Part shown: in pieces, positions 7,479 through 27,519 of the stretch
How positions within the stretch are numbered: position 1 is the first letter of the stretch
Layout: each line of letters opens with the position of its first letter
Source of the DNA: Candidatus Nitrosopumilus sp.
GTDB taxonomy: Archaea; Thermoproteota; Nitrososphaeria; Nitrososphaerales; Nitrosopumilaceae
DNA length: 64,000 bases
Reading direction: 5' to 3'
Assembly (NCBI GenBank): GCA_013215285.1
Contig: JABSRD010000006.1
Coordinates: 124,001 to 188,000 of the forward strand
The notes under the pieces: model-generated
What the model saw: the letters and a program-made list of their open reading frames with translations, nothing else
What the model was told of the DNA's origin: nothing
The model's database searches: none
Position numbers and translations under genes: made by a program

Positions 7479-7763
7479 ATGGAACTCAAAGTTCACATTA
7501 ATAATATTCATGGTAGTCAAATGGCTGCAAAGATTACTGGGAAATTCATTTTAGATAATAATGAATTTCGCTTTACTGCAATTGCATTTGGTAGAATAGG
7601 TGGACAAAATGTTGGTGCAAAGATTTCTAAAACTACTGAAAAAGAATTAGAAAAACTTGGATATGATACTGAAGAAGTCATAATAACACTTCAGAAAAAT
7701 CTGCTTCAAGGAGATTTGACTCTTCCAGAAGGACTCACAAAAGAATCATTTGTAGATGATTAA
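7479..7763 (+). CDS. Small conserved hypothetical protein
   Basis: 94 residues, acidic, no signal peptide or membrane segment. The sequence alternates short strands ([24 protein letters not shown]) with a helical C-terminal part ending in [13 protein letters not shown]. No family recognised. Its stop overlaps the stop of mtnP by 4 nt in a convergent arrangement, so there is no room for a separate terminator for either gene. Confidence 0.6.
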
Positions 7764-22743: not shown

Positions 22744-22926
22744 ATGGCAACACACGGTTCACTTACCAAAGCAGGTAAAGTACGAGGACAAACTCCAAAA
22801 GTTGAAGGACGGAAAATTGTAGGTACTAGTTCTAGTGTTGCAAACAAAAGTAAGTTCAAAAAACGATTTGCTCTTGGAAGATATCCTGGACAGAATAAAC
22901 CAGGACAACGAAGAAAGAGACGTTAG
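22744..22926 (+). CDS. rps30e: Small ribosomal subunit protein eS30
   Basis: 60 residues, strongly basic, with GSLTKAGKVRGQTPKV and the FALGRYPGQNKPGQRRKRR end diagnostic of S30e (in eukaryotes the ubiquitin-fusion protein Fau). No ubiquitin-like leader is present, as expected in archaea. The mobile element begins 43 bp after its stop, so its terminator region is short and now abuts the insertion. Confidence 0.9.
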   Translation: MATHGSLTKAGKVRGQTPKVEGRKIVGTSSSVANKSKFKKRFALGRYPGQNKPGQRRKRR

Positions 22927-22951: not shown

Positions 22952-23287
22952 TCAATCATTTCTAAAACAGGTGCTGTTACCTCTGCGGTAGTTGTTATCG
23001 GTGTTACTTTGCGGTTGGTCAGATTCATCATTAAAATAATCATTTTGTTTGTTAAATGTATTTACAGCTAGTTGTTTTTCTTCTAAAAGAAATTTAGTAT
23101 TTTGAAGTATTTGTTCTAACTGATCACGTCTTGGAATAATCACGTTATATTTTTCACCATATTTTAGTAATTGAATTGTACTACCTATCAAATGCTGTGA
23201 TAGTATACCATTTATACGAATAATCCTATTCATATTCTTGTTAGTTTCTACAATTTTCTCTAAAGAATCAATCATGGCTAGTCTCAC
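22952..23287 (-). CDS. Passenger gene of the mobile element: helical hypothetical protein
   Basis: 111 residues, mostly alpha-helical (IDSLEKIVETNKNMNRIIR, LLKYGEKYNVIIPRRDQLEQ); no family recognised. It is third in the minus-strand operon headed by the RHH gene and overlaps the previous gene by 20 nt. Its last residues (NNYRRGNSTCF) are encoded by the terminal inverted repeat, and the stop codon lies 18 bp outside the element in host DNA, so the C-terminus depends on the insertion site. Confidence 0.55.
   Translation of the reverse strand: MRLAMIDSLEKIVETNKNMNRIIRINGILSQHLIGSTIQLLKYGEKYNVIIPRRDQLEQILQNTKFLLEEKQLAVNTFNKQNDYFNDESDQPQSNTDNNYRRGNSTCFRND
22962..22969. repeat. Left target site duplication of the mobile element
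   Basis: CTAAAACA immediately outside the left terminal repeat; the same 8 bp, same orientation, abut the right terminal repeat. Eight-base duplications are characteristic of several DDE families, including IS6. Confidence 0.9.
22970..23018 (+). repeat. Left terminal inverted repeat (49 bp) of the mobile element
   Basis: Begins GGTGCTGTTACCTC; the complement is matched at 36 of 49 ungapped positions by the right end, with the outer 14 perfect. Two TGTTAC boxes start 27 bp apart (22975 and 23002), mirrored by GTAACA boxes 27 bp apart at the right end, which look like paired transposase-binding sites. Confidence 0.9.
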
Positions 23288-23654
23288 TCACATGTTTAAA
23301 ATAACTATTAATCCATTTTAAACCCTCATCATTTTCACTATTTTTTAATTTTATTCCATGCTCTTCTAATACTTTGTATATTTCACTAAATCTTTCACGA
23401 TTCAAACAATGATAAACGTATAATGCTTCAATATCACCATTCATACTATCTAATGATGAAAATAGACGATTACTTGTTATCTTAATCATTTCTAATAACG
23501 CTGTACTATCTTCTGTGGAATAGATAGGAGATTTTATTTTGTTTATAATTTTAAGATTTTTTGCCACAGACCTTCTACTTTGCTCAAAGTGTTCTTTAAC
23601 ATCTGAAGATAGAACTCTATCCCGTGTATCTCTGTAATATTTACCCATATCCAT
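23268..23654 (-). CDS. Passenger gene of the mobile element: helical hypothetical protein
   Basis: 128 residues, predicted almost wholly helical (VKEHFEQSRRSVAKNLKIIN, TALLEMIKITSNRLFSSLD, ERFSEIYKVLEEHGIKL). No catalytic motif, signal peptide or membrane segment. Its ATG shares one base with the TAA of the upstream RHH gene (TAATG), so the two are probably translated together. Partner or effector of the RHH protein is a guess only. Confidence 0.6.
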   Translation of the reverse strand: MDMGKYYRDTRDRVLSSDVKEHFEQSRRSVAKNLKIINKIKSPIYSTEDSTALLEMIKITSNRLFSSLDSMNGDIEALYVYHCLNRERFSEIYKVLEEHGIKLKNSENDEGLKWINSYFKHVSETSHD

Positions 23655-23824
23655 TATTTTTTCTTCCTTTGTTTTTTAACCCATTCCTCTAGGGCTTCTT
23701 CTAATCCGTCTTGTATACTTCCTTTTTTAAATCCAAATTTATTAAATGTAATTTCTCTAAACTCTTTCTCTAATTTTTCATTTATTGTGGAATTGATTCT
23801 TATGTTTTTACTTTGTTTTTGCAT
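23654..23824 (-). CDS. Ribbon-helix-helix DNA-binding protein, likely repressor of the element
   Basis: 56 residues from the ATG at 23824: a strand (KNIRINSTIN) then helices (EKLEKEFREITFNKFG and GLEEALEEWVKKQRKKK), the compact RHH/MetJ-Arc layout. The 77-bp gap to the divergent transposase contains a perfect 10-bp inverted repeat, the kind of operator RHH dimers bind. Heads a three-gene overlapping operon. An autorepressor that also controls the transposase is the simplest reading, but this is inference. Confidence 0.65.
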   Translation of the reverse strand: MQKQSKNIRINSTINEKLEKEFREITFNKFGFKKGSIQDGLEEALEEWVKKQRKKK

Positions 23825-23859
23825 ATACTTGTTAATAATTTAGTTCTTTATAAACATAC

Positions 23860-23898
23860 ACGTATATGTTTATATTATACATTTGTGTACATATACGT
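23860..23898. promoter_or_regulatory. Palindromic operator candidate between RHH gene and transposase
   Basis: ACGTATATGT (23860-23869) and its exact reverse complement ACATATACGT (23889-23898) are separated by 19 bp. TATA-like TTTATAAA (about 23848) suits the RHH gene and TATATTATA (about 23871) suits the transposase, so a protein on the palindrome would cover both promoters. Confidence 0.65.
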
Positions 23899-23901
23899 AT
23901 A

Positions 23902-25032
23902 ATGGTAGAAAACAAAAGACAAGAGAAAGGCAAAGCAATAGCCCTAAAATCTGACCTAATTAGATTGTCAGACTTCCATTATCATGTTCATTCACAGACT
24001 AGCAATAGAGATTATGAAGTTATCAAAGTAGCAGATAAATGGACTTGTAACTGTGCAGACTGCAAATTTAGGCACGTATGCTGTAAGCACATTCATGCAG
24101 TAGAGATTAGCATACACATGAGAATTGAGGCACGAGAAAAAACCAAAGTTACATTATCACCAATTATTTCTACTAAAACAACTACAGAGTGTAATTTCTG
24201 TCATGGTACAAACATAACTAAAAATGGTATTAGACGTAATAAAATAGGTAACATTCAAAGATTCTCATGTGTAGACTGTCATAGGACATTCTCAATTAAT
24301 TTAGGATTTGAAAAGATGAAGTCAAGCCCAGAAGCTATTACTAACGCTCTACAGTTGTATTTTACGGGTGAATCTTTACGCAACGTTCAGAAATTCCTAA
24401 AACTACAAGGCGTTCAAGTATCTCACAAAACTATCTATCTGTGGATTGTAAAATATACTAAACTAATGAAGGCTCACCTAGATAAGATAACCCCACAAGT
24501 AGGGGATTCATGGCGAGCTGATGAGGTGTATGTTAAGATTCGAGGTGAGCTAAAGTATGTATTCTCTTTAATGGATTCTGAAACTAGATTTTGGATAGCC
24601 CAAGAGGTAGCAAACAGAAAAGAGGGACATGACGCCTCTAGTTTGTTTCGTGCTGGAAAAAAAATTACTGGAACAAAGCCTAAAGTGATAATCACGGATG
24701 GTCTTCATTCATACTCTGAAGCGTACAGAAAAGAGTTTTGGACTATACAAAGAGAGAATAGAACTATACACATTCGTAACGTACACCTTCAAGGTGACAT
24801 GAACAATAACCAAATGGAAAGATTGAATGGAGAGTTTAGAGACAGGGAGAAAGTTATGAGGGGAATCAAAAAAGTTGACGGTGCAATTATTGACGGTTAT
24901 CAGTTGTATCATAATTATGTACGACCTCACATGGCATTAGATGGCAAGACACCAGCTGACAAGTGCGGGATTATAATTGAGGGGAATAACAAATGGTTAA
25001 CTTTGATTCAGAATGCGAGTAAAGAAATCTAA
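23902..25032 (+). CDS. DDE transposase with SWIM zinc finger and zinc ribbon
   Basis: 376 residues from the ATG at 23902; upstream open codons overlap the operator and are not used. Order: SWIM finger (WTCNCADCKFRHVCCKHIH, about residues 48-66), zinc ribbon CNFCHG...CVDCHRTF (about 95-120), helix-turn-helix (SLRNVQKFLKLQGVQVSHKT), then the DDE core: D in WRADEVYVKI, D in VIITDGLHSY, E in NNQMERLNGE with 39 residues between the last two. The C-terminal NYVRPHMALDGKTPA is typical of IS6-like and related families. The SWIM finger is an uncommon addition for a compact transposase. The stop overlaps that of the convergent winged-helix gene by 4 nt. Confidence 0.92.
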   Translation: MVENKRQEKGKAIALKSDLIRLSDFHYHVHSQTSNRDYEVIKVADKWTCNCADCKFRHVCCKHIHAVEISIHMRIEAREKTKVTLSPIISTKTTTECNFCHGTNITKNGIRRNKIGNIQRFSCVDCHRTFSINLGFEKMKSSPEAITNALQLYFTGESLRNVQKFLKLQGVQVSHKTIYLWIVKYTKLMKAHLDKITPQVGDSWRADEVYVKIRGELKYVFSLMDSETRFWIAQEVANRKEGHDASSLFRAGKKITGTKPKVIITDGLHSYSEAYRKEFWTIQRENRTIHIRNVHLQGDMNNNQMERLNGEFRDREKVMRGIKKVDGAIIDGYQLYHNYVRPHMALDGKTPADKCGIIIEGNNKWLTLIQNASKEI

Positions 25033-25346
25033 CGAGTTAAATGATTTTCAACATTGTTTAACAATTTTTCAACATTGTTTAACAATTTTTCAACATCTAA
25101 TTCTTTTACTAATTGAATGCCGAAATCAGTCAAGGTATAAGCAAAATAATTTTTACCTATATCTGTAATCTGTGCTTTTGATGTAACGTAATTCGAAGTT
25201 TTGAGTTTGTTTAGTCTATTTACTAATGAAGTATCTGAGACATTTAGTTTTAATTTTAAATCACCATATCTTAAACCATTTTTTGATTTGTTTAATAGAT
25301 TTAGAGTTTCTAAAATAATATGATCTAGATAATCGCTCTTTTCCAC
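25029..25346 (-). CDS. Winged-helix protein in the mobile element
   Basis: 105 residues. A winged helix spans about 5-80 (LNLLNKSKNGLRYGDLKLKL, SDTSLVNRLNKLKTSNYV, then a TDIGKNYFAYTLTDFG wing), resembling small archaeal HTH regulators. The C-terminus repeats VEKLLNN twice, encoded by a 21-nt direct repeat. Transcription is towards the transposase, ending 4 nt inside it. A second regulator of the element is likely; targets unknown. Confidence 0.65.
   Translation of the reverse strand: MEKSDYLDHIILETLNLLNKSKNGLRYGDLKLKLNVSDTSLVNRLNKLKTSNYVTSKAQITDIGKNYFAYTLTDFGIQLVKELDVEKLLNNVEKLLNNVENHLTR
25046..25096 (-). repeat. 21-nt direct repeat at the end of the winged-helix gene
   Basis: Two full copies (25046-25066 and 25067-25087) and a 9-nt partial third. 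In frame it encodes NNVEKLL units, so copy number changes only the tail length. Confidence 0.85.
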
Positions 25347-25436
25347 TACTATTAGTAACTTACCACGCTTTTTATTATTTGCTAATCCTTTTTAATAAAA
25401 GATAACTCTTAAAAAGAAGTACACTACACGCTAGGC

Positions 25437-25556
25437 ATGACAAAAAAATATGTCTACGTAGATTGTCACAAGGTAGCAGACGGAACCACGTCTTGTACAA
25501 GAGTGCTAAAAGCACCAGCTGCCAAAGATAGTGCTAAATTCACTAAAAGAGAATAA
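25437..25556 (+). CDS. Small basic ORF in the mobile element (39 residues)
   Basis: Starts MTKKYVYVDCHKVADGTTSC and ends KFTKRE. Two Cys. It has a TATA-like TTTTAATAAAA about 45 bp upstream and convergent RHH gene downstream. Too short to assign; protein-like composition and a clean ATG make it worth listing. Confidence 0.4.
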   Translation: MTKKYVYVDCHKVADGTTSCTRVLKAPAAKDSAKFTKRE

Positions 25557-25636
25557 AACGACTAGGAGTTATTTGCCCGCAAAACAAATAATCCGATTCC
25601 CTTTTTTTAGAGCATAATGATCTAAAAGTCTTTTCA

Positions 25637-25771
25637 TTATTGCAACTGCTTCTTCACACAAAACTCAAACCCATGACTACGATTGAAAAACTCACCCGCC
25701 TCTATCTTTTCATCCAGTAACTCCAAAACTTCAGAGCCTACAGATATTGTAATCCTCTCACGCTTTGTCAT
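25637..25771 (-). CDS. CopG-like ribbon-helix-helix protein in the mobile element
   Basis: 44 residues: ERITISVGSEVLELLDEKI is a textbook RHH strand-helix, followed by EAGEFFNRSHGFEFCVKKQL. The stop overlaps a further 22-codon frame (ATG at 25637, TAATG junction, ending at 25569) that I cannot support as a gene. Divergent from the exported-protein gene with 54 bp between starts, which it may control. It is the second RHH protein in the same element. Confidence 0.6.
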   Translation of the reverse strand: MTKRERITISVGSEVLELLDEKIEAGEFFNRSHGFEFCVKKQLQ

Positions 25772-25825
25772 AACTATAATACAGTTTTATGTAAATTTAA
25801 ATAGGAATATGATAACTGTATACAA

Positions 25826-26164
25826 ATGAATACTTTAATGGTATTATTGGTGGTTTTAGGCACAATAGGAATACTAACATCTTTTGTTTATGCCGAAGAT
25901 GAAAACAATCTATTAGATAAGATCATACAATTAGAAAACCAAATAGAATCAAAAGATGCAATAATCTTTGAACAAATCAAGGTAATTTCTGAGCTTGCCA
26001 AAAACTACAAGCCCGTCTATGAATCTTTCTCATTAGAAAAATTCCCAGACACAGATGGATTCAATCCAGCATGGCTAGAAGGCGAAAGAGAAAAGATTCT
26101 CAAAACCTGTCTAGAATCATCTAAAATGGGTTTTGAAAACAATTATTGCAAGTATGTGCAATAG
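25826..26164 (+). CDS. Small exported protein carried by the mobile element
   Basis: 112 residues. A signal peptide (MNTLMVLLVVLGTIGILTSF, cleavage near VYAED) is followed by a heptad-like coiled coil (LLDKIIQLENQIESKDAIIF) and a C-terminal part with two Cys (TCLESSKMGF and NNYCKYV). Function unknown. Its presence inside the transposon indicates a passenger gene rather than a transposition function. TATA-like AAATAGGAATAT lies about 25 bp upstream. Confidence 0.6.
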   Translation: MNTLMVLLVVLGTIGILTSFVYAEDENNLLDKIIQLENQIESKDAIIFEQIKVISELAKNYKPVYESFSLEKFPDTDGFNPAWLEGEREKILKTCLESSKMGFENNYCKYVQ

Positions 26165-26190
26165 TTAATTTCTTTCTTTTTTTGTGCCTA

Positions 26191-26239
26191 CCAACCGAAA
26201 GGTAACAGGTTCAATAACCCCCTAGGAGGTAACAGCACC
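26191..26239 (-). repeat. Right terminal inverted repeat (49 bp) of the mobile element
   Basis: Runs from CCAACCG to GAGGTAACAGCACC; pairs with the left end at 36 of 49 positions without gaps. GTAACA boxes at 26202 and 26229 (27 bp apart) mirror those at the left end. Confidence 0.9.
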
Positions 26240-26247
26240 CTAAAACA
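26240..26247. repeat. Right target site duplication of the mobile element
   Basis: CTAAAACA abutting the right terminal repeat, identical to the 8 bp at the left end. Confidence 0.9.
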
Positions 26248-26252
26248 ATAAC

Positions 26253-26284
26253 CTTATAAAGTACTGGTACCGTACTATACGGTA
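26253..26284 (+). promoter_or_regulatory. radA promoter with TATA box and start-site palindrome
   Basis: TATA-like CTTATAAAG sits 24-31 bp before the ATG, which fits a leaderless message. TACCGTA-CTA-TACGGTA (26268-26284) is a perfect 7-bp inverted repeat whose last base is the A of the ATG, so a bound protein would block initiation. The mobile element ends 13 bp upstream of the TATA box. Confidence 0.6.
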
Positions 26285-27519
26285 TGGTAGAAGATTTAAG
26301 ATTAGATAGTTTAGAGGGCGTAGGTCCTGTAACTACAAGAAAATTATCCGATGCAGGTATCCACAACGTCATGGATCTCATCGTTAGAGGTCCAGTTGAA
26401 ATTGCAGATATAACTGGAATGGAAAAAGATACCGCAGAAAAAATTGTCGATAAAGCCAGACAACATTTAGTGGAAGGTGGATTACTTTCAAAAGACTTTG
26501 TTAGTGCAACTGAAATTTACAAACGACGACAAAGTATTGGTAAAATTACAACTGGTACAAACTGTCTTGATACACTATTTGATGGTGGTATTGAAACTCA
26601 GGCATTAACAGAAGTTTATGGAGAATTTGGTTGTGGTAAAACACAATTTGCTCATACAATGTCTGTAATGGTTCAAAAAACCAAAGAAGAAGGTGGTCTT
26701 GAAGGCACTGTATTGTACATTGATACTGAAAATACTTTCAGACCTGAGAGAATTGTAACTATTGCTAAAGCTCATGGAATGGATCCAGACAAAGTTCTAG
26801 ATAATATCATTGTAGCTCGTGCATATAATAGCGCACATCAGACATTGATTCTAGAAGAATCTGGTGCAATAATTAAGGAAAACAATGTGAAATTATTAAT
26901 TGTAGATTCTGCTGTTGGTTTATTCCGTGCTGAATATCTTGGACGAGGTACATTAGCTGCCAGACAACAAAAACTAAATCATTTTGTTCATTTGTTAGTA
27001 AGGATTGCAGAAACCTATGACTGTGCTGCACTTGCAACTAACCAAGTCATGGCATCACCTGATGTGTTCTTTGGAGATCCAACACGTCCAGTTGGTGGAA
27101 ATGTAGTTGCACATACAAGTACATACAGAATATACTTTAAGAAATCAGGCAAAAAACGAATTGCTAGAATGGTAGATAGTCCTCACCATCCTGAAGAGGA
27201 AGTAATCTTTGCTCTAGGTGAAGCAGGTGTTATTGATCCTGAAGAAGCAGAGAAAAAGACAAAAAAGTATACCAAAAAAGTAAAAGAGCCAGAAGTTGAA
27301 ACTATTACGGAAACACCAAAAGTTGAAACTATTACGGAAACACCAAAAGTTGAAACTATTACGGAAACACCAAAAGTTGAAACTATTACGGAAACACCAA
27401 AAGTTGAAACTATTACGGAAACACCCGAAACTAAATCTACTGCAAAAACCTCTAAATCAAAAACTGTAAAATCTACAGTAGATGCTGAATCTAATGATTC
27501 AGAACCAATAGAAGAGTAA
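26284..27519 (+). CDS. radA: DNA repair and recombination protein RadA with a repetitive C-terminal tail
   Basis: Archaeal Rad51/RecA recombinase. N-terminal helix-hairpin-helix domain (about 5-65: LEGVGPVTTRKLSDAG), Walker A GEFGCGKT at 113-120, Walker B VKLLIVDSAVGLF, L1/L2 region with AALATNQVM and DPTRPVGGNVVAH. The core ends at about residue 330, the usual length. The remaining 80 residues are a tail holding five copies of a nine-residue VETITETPK repeat and a Ser/Thr/Lys-rich end. This tail is unusual for RadA. Its promoter abuts the mobile element. Confidence 0.96.
   Translation: MVEDLRLDSLEGVGPVTTRKLSDAGIHNVMDLIVRGPVEIADITGMEKDTAEKIVDKARQHLVEGGLLSKDFVSATEIYKRRQSIGKITTGTNCLDTLFDGGIETQALTEVYGEFGCGKTQFAHTMSVMVQKTKEEGGLEGTVLYIDTENTFRPERIVTIAKAHGMDPDKVLDNIIVARAYNSAHQTLILEESGAIIKENNVKLLIVDSAVGLFRAEYLGRGTLAARQQKLNHFVHLLVRIAETYDCAALATNQVMASPDVFFGDPTRPVGGNVVAHTSTYRIYFKKSGKKRIARMVDSPHHPEEEVIFALGEAGVIDPEEAEKKTKKYTKKVKEPEVETITETPKVETITETPKVETITETPKVETITETPKVETITETPETKSTAKTSKSKTVKSTVDAESNDSEPIEE
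27295..27425 (+). repeat. 27-nt in-frame tandem repeat in radA
   Basis: Units begin at 27295, 27322, 27349, 27376 and 27403, essentially identical in DNA; each encodes VETITETPK. The last is degenerate at its end. Confidence 0.95.

Follow-up and report, generated by a model that had tools for sequence, protein, structure and literature searches.

A cargo-carrying IS6-type transposon beside the radA promoter of a Nitrosopumilus archaeon, and evidence that its family inserts at a fixed register next to BRE-TATA promoters

Between rps30e (22744-22926) and radA (26284-27519) in a 64,000-nucleotide stretch of a Candidatus Nitrosopumilus sp. genome, from an archaeon of the ammonia-oxidising type, lies an intact transposon of 3,270 bp (22970-26239; all coordinates are those of this whole stretch, hereafter the window). 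We propose, with a probability of roughly 0.9, that this block is an IS6-type transposon with cargo genes, and that it belongs to a family that inserts at one fixed register beside promoters consisting of a TFB-recognition element (BRE) and a TATA box, including promoters of housekeeping genes. The proposal is drawn from sequence, namely from the ends of the elements, the target duplications, empty sites in relatives, the constancy of the register, the tandem re-use of promoters, and the insertion of divergent transposases at radA. The family is widespread, and its members repeatedly insert just before host-gene promoters, apparently without breaking the genes. An earlier note on the same DNA had recognized the transposon, but missed the fixed-register insertion beside the radA promoter, which is family-wide and its most striking property.

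The transposon at radA and its empty site

Comparison of the two ends identified terminal inverted repeats (TIRs) of 50 nt each at 22970-23019 (plus strand) and 26190-26239 (minus strand). They are 74% complementary, and their outer 14 nt (GGTGCTGTTACCTC) match perfectly; the left repeat, beginning with GGTGCTGTTACC, is IS6-like. The octamer CTAAAACA is present exactly at 22962-22969 and at 26240-26247, as an 8-bp target duplication. Its right copy adjoins the radA core promoter (26248-26261, plus strand), which is composed of the 6-bp BRE stretch ATAACC (26248-26253) and the TATA box TTATAAAG (26254-26261), and the radA ATG follows at 26284. The element would thus have landed 6 bp upstream of the radA TATA box and immediately upstream of the BRE. 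The earlier description of an intact DDE transposon with terminal repeats and an 8-bp duplication is therefore upheld.

When the own genome was searched with the outer 14-bp pattern, allowing at most two mismatches, 10 places were found, versus 4 for a reversed control, and the only mismatch-free matches were the two ends of this element. In our end search (see below) the element scored 37, compared with a 99th percentile of 34 and a maximum of 39 for the null. Chance as the source of the ends and duplication was considered and rejected on the basis of the displaced-duplication null and the empty site in relatives.

To read this site in relatives, we searched for radA in 61 genomes (the own and 60 relatives), of which 37 belong to the genus, and upstream DNA was obtained for 30 of the 37. 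Among these 30 loci (own included), 21 are empty, 4 are occupied by intact elements (own genome, G013, G031 and G034), 3 hold relics with a terminal repeat that ends at the same base (G009, G010 and G035), and 2 are cut by contig ends (G001 and G003). The empty rps30e-radA spacer measures 81-88 bp, stop codon included, and carries a single octamer at the same place, followed by 6 bp and TTATAAAG. This octamer is exactly CTAAAACA in 6 of the 21 (G002, G005, G007, G008, G016 and G020), with variants in the others. The expectation, raised beforehand, of a single octamer between rps30e and radA wherever the block is absent was thus borne out at the 21 empty loci, and none of the relatives compared carried the gene block without its ends, the case that the earlier note had named as contrary to its claim. 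That the element and its empty site are real is nearly certain. Occupied radA sites were later found in G094, G071 and G118, as well as in another genus (G192), and insertions also lie upstream of Pfam-confirmed Rad51-family genes in G359, G318 and G158.

A fixed register beside BRE and TATA

A search with the transposase gave 12 hits in the own genome, and hits in 23 of 61 genomes, in 27 of 95 genus members (E ≤ 1e-20) and in 74 of 400 genomes of the order (E ≤ 1e-75). Loci were fetched for the better and more complete hits, and are thus a chosen subset; ends were sought for the 161 hits of more than 240 nt. As a null, displaced "duplications" were evaluated, four per hit, and at least 95% of these tests yielded no candidate; the acceptance threshold was set at a score of 33. 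Ends were accepted for 80 of the 161 hits, and for 74 of the 121 hits that cover at least 300 residues. The 80 accepted hits represent 79 distinct places, from which one composite of two neighbours was removed to leave 78 sites.

The arrangement seen at radA, that is, octamer, 6 bp and then TATA, is what we call register zero, and it recurs across the flanks of the family. With both flanks pooled and unoriented, the A/T fraction outward from the octamer reaches 0.83 and 0.88 at distances 7 and 9, versus 0.51-0.68 past position 12. A weight matrix was seeded with the TATA consensus, trained on four fifths of the sites, and applied to the held-out sites at 41 registers. Register 0 was the best register at 47 of 78 held-out sites (1.9 expected; best other register, 3) and, when only one site was retained per cluster of similar flanks, at 30 of 59 (1.4 expected; best other register, 5). 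A matrix trained on all 59 scored at least 4 at 40 of those same sites, versus 0.9% of random positions in the same loci. At register 0 the radA promoter of the window scores 6.7 bits with the promoter matrix. The motif that was learned, nAATAYTTAWAWA, has what we take to be the form of an archaeal BRE-TATA promoter, with an A-rich BRE followed by TATA. At 22 of 39 scoring sites, the start of an open reading frame (ORF) of 100 aa or more lies 22-75 nt from the octamer, at a median distance of 37 nt; the same holds for only 1,642 of the 8,610 other scoring positions in these loci (19.1%). Together, these flanks argue strongly for insertion beside promoters at a fixed register.

The register was also seen outside the initial set. 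Candidatus Methanoperedens and an uncultured archaeon have relatives at 54-56% identity (29 loci); 17 of these loci were examined for ends, of which 8 could be resolved and 9 could not. One in Methanoperedens (L294) and one in the uncultured archaeon (L295) add to the earlier set independently, each with a promoter at register 0. Among IS6 loci from the wider phylum, 5 of 30 were resolved; 4 are at register 0, although all belong to the same order and are re-finds of sites already counted.

Target genes

A simple rule gave 59 neighbouring ORFs; 20 were picked by eye and submitted to Pfam, and 4 of these had no family. The promoter matrix points at genes for RadA/Rad51 (L161, L166 and L214, in addition to the radA sites of the genus), TFB (L073 and L219, and L191 by likeness), EF-1A (L140), ribosomal protein L3 (L213), SufB (L207), topoisomerase IB (L195), a beta-CASP protein (L211), a class IV aminotransferase (L076), a radical SAM enzyme (L141) and a metallophosphoesterase (L179). 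Two targets of other kinds recur: a protein of about 290 aa with a signal-like start (L055, L061, L128, L133 and L187, and by flank L131 and L303) and a 128-aa protein (L062, L064, L065 and L177). The label "housekeeping" for these targets is an impression gained from a chosen sample. There was no promoter call for TFB at L084 or for radA at L172. Three candidate targets, ribosomal protein S13 (L192), a nucleotidyltransferase (L218) and a carboxyltransferase (L126), were dropped because the promoter matrix placed them on the wrong side or made no call.

The radA promoter also includes a palindrome, TACCGTACTATACGGTA (window 26268-26284), that reaches the start codon and is mostly conserved in relatives. 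The own genome has no other exact copy of it, and the recurrent site of the 128-aa protein shows a similar sequence after its TATA box. This palindrome is possibly a shared operator.

Tandem re-use of promoters

Promoter calls were made for 60 elements. In 15 of them a TIR-like end starts at the base after the duplication on the promoter-distal flank, and in none does one start on the promoter flank. The direction of the transposase relative to the gene is evenly divided (31:29). By script, the same octamer closes the far end of the neighbour in 1 of the 15 cases (G031), so that the other 14 must have undergone either a change in the older octamer or decay of the neighbour.

Two arrays lie at radA itself. 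In G013, four identical octamers (positions 7634, 9980, 14445 and 16940 of L058) separate elements between radA and rps30e; in the outermost one, beside rps30e, only a transposase fragment was detected. In G031, two elements abut at the same octamer, and their transposases, which are 40% and 66% identical to the query, are far apart on the tree. On the tree of 79 transposases, 4 changes are required to account for the radA label, 2 of which are forced by well-supported branches, although the bootstrap is not fully settled. As judged from tree and arrays, radA is a site hit by divergent transposases. The geometry of the arrays suggests that their order is also an order in time, with the newest element nearest the promoter.

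IS5-group elements as a comparison

Elements with PF01609, which we take to be the IS5 group, were collected from the same order and intended as a negative control; 13 of 30 loci were resolved. None is at register 0, 5 of the 13 are at register +1 with a score of at least 4, and other registers have 0-1. In a stricter first pass, 7 of 30 were resolved, with none at register 0 and up to 4 at one other register. The five loci L221, L231, L234, L241 and L245 hold PF01609 insertion sequences of about 1 kb that have 8-9-bp duplications and lie 7 bp from TATA-like boxes. This peak weakens the idea of the SWIM-type module of the IS6-type transposase (see below) as the targeting device and favours a beacon on the host side, either the promoter complex or its bent DNA. 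That these elements too sit near TATA, with a one-base shift, hints that the promoter bound by TATA-binding protein (TBP) and TFB may be that beacon.

Explanations for the fixed register

In the mechanism that we envisage, the transposase would place the element, in either orientation, at a fixed register that leaves BRE, TATA and gene start intact, and a later element would insert at that very base, on the promoter side of the older one, to produce tandem arrays. The TBP/TFB-bound promoter, rather than naked DNA sequence, may guide the transpososome, much as TFIIIB does with the Ty3 integrase; such guidance is plausible, at about even odds. Transposition may be replicative, as in IS26, and a small, divergently encoded DNA-binding-like protein may regulate the transposase. 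Our broader and more tentative suggestion, to which we give slightly less than an even chance, is that the TBP/TFB-bound core promoter serves archaeal IS6-type cargo transposons as a beacon, which would make them a counterpart of Ty3, that each host promoter is a re-usable site where elements collect in order of time with the newest nearest the gene, and that unrelated insertion sequences may have converged on the same beacon.

Two rivals concern the guidance step and leave the fixed register as it is. The transposase might itself read an AT-rich, BRE/TATA-like motif with no transcription factor involved, and a sequence motif is indeed all that the data show directly. However, gene starts are about three times as frequent downstream of insertions as downstream of equal motif matches (a difference to which the loss of insertions within genes could contribute), and the IS5-group elements, apparently unrelated, exhibit the same motif with the register shifted by 1 bp; we regard direct reading as a serious contender that is nonetheless somewhat improbable. 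Alternatively, any DDE element that makes 8-9-bp duplications might prefer the DNA bent by a TBP-bound TATA box, with no adaptation of the transposase. The IS5-group elements at register +1 are what this explanation would lead one to expect, but they are a small sample from that group only, and a generic preference for bends would not obviously yield one sharp register, so we consider it unlikely.

The other two rivals deny targeting or repeated insertion, and we reject both. If insertions were random and survived only just upstream of promoters, those within genes would be lost, and several targets are indeed essential-type genes. Survival predicts a permissive zone, however, and not a peak at a single base with other registers near background, nor does it account for the elements that abut another TIR-like end exactly at the duplication; selection without targeting is thus very improbable. 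A single ancestral insertion at radA, inherited by many species, draws on the fact that 12 of the 17 tree rows in the well-supported set that includes the window element are at radA. Yet most radA loci that were read in the genus are empty, octamers differ among several species (TGTTTTAG, TGTTTCGA, TGTTCTAG and TGTTTGAC) while agreeing within each locus, elements of one array are in different parts of the tree, and the transposase tree points to several independent gains. We give this explanation almost no credence.

Some observations count against insertion of the family at a fixed register beside promoters, or limit what can be made of it. Only about half of the hits could be resolved, and fragmented assemblies are frequent among the genomes. 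A TATA consensus was the seed of the motif search, though held-out sites served for the register test, and for 18 of the 78 sites no promoter was called at register 0. One short IS6 element without SWIM (667 bp; L265 in G043), the fifth resolved locus from the wider phylum, is not at register 0, nor does L311, a copy on a viral contig, lie at a promoter; among the other viral-contig loci, L310 could not be resolved, L312 has no credible ends, and the other 12 of 15 match only the C-terminal part. Given the IS5-group peak, this family is not alone in targeting promoters. When further insertion sequence families were sought de novo in the fetched loci, 32 raw candidates emerged versus 19 in an offset null, and no usable control family. 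Finally, the AlphaFold model of the transposase is poor (mean pLDDT 64.4) and was not used for a fold search.

If TBP/TFB promoters are indeed the target, this would be a prokaryotic DDE transposon that targets the promoter type common to archaea and eukaryotes, and a minimal system for testing how integrases find initiation complexes. It would also explain how cargo transposons are tolerated beside housekeeping genes in compact archaeal genomes, offer a rule by which transposon ends and cargo, DNA methyltransferases among it, can be located, and point to a possible way of placing DNA beside a chosen archaeal promoter.

The transposase

The transposase of the radA element (23902-25032, plus strand; 376 aa) combines a SWIM-type CxC..CxH motif, a zinc ribbon and a DDE core, as assigned from Pfam, NCBIfam and alignments; a further in-frame ATG lies upstream, at 23866. 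It passes the cut-offs of the NCBIfam IS6 model NF033587 (128 bits versus 125) and of Pfam DDE_Tnp_IS240 (68.5 bits versus 27), in agreement with the IS6 resemblance suggested earlier, whereas its Pfam SWIM match is below the cut-off (13.6 versus 19.6 bits). The SWIM-type residues (C49, C51, C61 and H63) and the zinc-ribbon cysteines (C97, C100, C123 and C126) are nevertheless invariant in alignments of 13 and 21 homologues, and conservation leads us to propose D207, D266 and E306 as the catalytic triad. A search of solved structures with the transposase profile gave no match at E ≤ 1. Mutator models are absent from the Pfam matches at E ≤ 1, and NCBIfam IS256 scores 20.5 bits versus a cut-off of 150. 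At least 5,000 plasmid records and 28 phage records match, all below 60% identity and none with a single stretch that spans 80% of the query. The 15 bacterial plasmid proteins listed as matches to P0001 are 24-30% identical to it, so the transposase is not close to the short bacterial IS6/IS26 transposases.

Fragments of the transposase that consist only of the C-terminal part (45 matches, counting redundant ones and those cut by locus edges) are more common than N-terminal ones (5). They include L037-L042, L151, L152, L157 and L313-L324, are also found in viral contigs, and mostly have no resolvable ends; a detection bias due to the strongly conserved C-terminus is a possible cause. Elsewhere in the own genome (C22:48-53 kb; L052 8099-13231), four whole or partial transposase relatives in both orientations, with ends that could not be resolved, are possibly a decayed array.

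Cargo and element anatomy

Six of the other ORFs of the radA element flank the transposase as follows, and a seventh opens divergently from it. On the minus strand to its left are a 111-aa ORF with no convincing family (22952-23287), whose 3' end crosses the left TIR and the duplication into host DNA, a 128-aa ORF with no family (23268-23654), and the divergent gene for a 56-aa protein (23654-23824) that weakly resembles ribbon-helix-helix (RHH) proteins (19.1 versus a cut-off of 27.2). To its right are a 105-aa winged-helix-like protein (25029-25346, minus strand) just under the HxlR cut-off (19.4 versus 20.8), an uncertain 39-aa ORF (25437-25556, plus strand), a 44-aa CopG-like RHH protein (25637-25771, minus strand) just under the RHH_1 cut-off (20.0 versus 20.5), and a 112-aa protein with no family (25826-26164, plus strand) whose N-terminal hydrophobic stretch looks signal-like by eye. 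Passenger genes are thus present, as had been claimed, but the labels given to them fared less well: both RHH proteins and the winged-helix protein are only sub-threshold Pfam matches, and the two "helical" proteins and the exported protein match nothing convincing.

Of the proteins of this element, only the transposase and the 56-aa protein recur in other resolved elements, the latter in 2 of them. The 39-aa and 44-aa ORFs have no relative in the fetched loci and, when these two shortest ORFs were checked separately, matched only in copies of the same radA locus. The cargo set as a whole is in no relative among the elements and loci compared.

Across the family (the 78 sites and the middle G013 element), length ranges from 1,970 to 6,533 bp, with a median of 3,168. 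A small ORF (at most 95 aa) divergent to the transposase and within 350 nt of it is present in 47 of the 79 elements. Many of these ORFs are MazE/AbrB-like, RHH-like or zinc-ribbon-like and a few look spurious; of nine submitted to Pfam, 2 pass the cut-off (MazE_antitoxin). A cargo family of DNA methylase type is carried by 8 elements (L073, L080, L083, L140, L141, L142, L194 and L220; the one member tested matched N6_N4_Mtase), and related cargo resembling type IIG restriction-methylases by 2 (L137 and L211; one tested).

Comparison with known systems

The yeast retrotransposon Ty3 integrates at genes transcribed by Pol III, in a constant position with respect to an initiation complex that contains TBP, and its tether has been shown experimentally. 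The archaeal elements resemble it in having a fixed place relative to a TBP-type promoter.

Duplications of 8 bp are typical of IS6. The elements share with the archaeal branch of that family (PMC7986276; PMC6807381) the transposase family model, GG..CTGT ends and 8-bp duplications, and differ in their N-terminal SWIM-type motif and zinc ribbon, their size of 2.0-6.5 kb with cargo, their fixed-register promoter insertion and their tandem arrays. The radA element does not belong to IS6/IS26 in the narrow sense of Harmer and Hall (PMC6807381), since its transposase is not close to the short bacterial ones. The earlier note knew of no description of ends and cargo like these. For the ends this is not supported, because they follow the GG..CTGT pattern of IS6 (PMC7986276). 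The cargo does go beyond the usual content: according to the same source, IS6 generally carries the transposase only, with one passenger-carrying member named (ISDsp3), whereas the radA element has several further ORFs.

In the same host group, 244 insertion sequences of 13 families have been catalogued as thaumarchaeal IS-like transposons, typically with 1-2 genes (PMC6563490); the radA element carries more. The main text of that paper has no words beginning with promoter, cargo or SWIM. In searches of open-access literature, preprints excluded, we recognized from titles and the starts of abstracts no report of archaeal transposons at a fixed distance from BRE/TATA, and PMC3942029 goes no further than the speculation that ISH6 may prefer promoters or intergenic DNA.

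A bacterial parallel is in the Mutator-like p-MULT elements TnGBS, ISLre2 and ISKra4, which insert 15-17 bases upstream of the -35 box of sigma-A promoters, and for which contact with the RNA polymerase initiation complex has been proposed (PMC3942029). Both groups are DDE elements at a fixed distance upstream of promoters. The p-MULT elements differ in their bacterial sigma-A promoters, unrelated transposase and mostly oriented insertion, and some are conjugative. The principle thus has a bacterial precedent in transposases of an unrelated family (PMC3942029), and here takes an archaeal BRE/TATA form.

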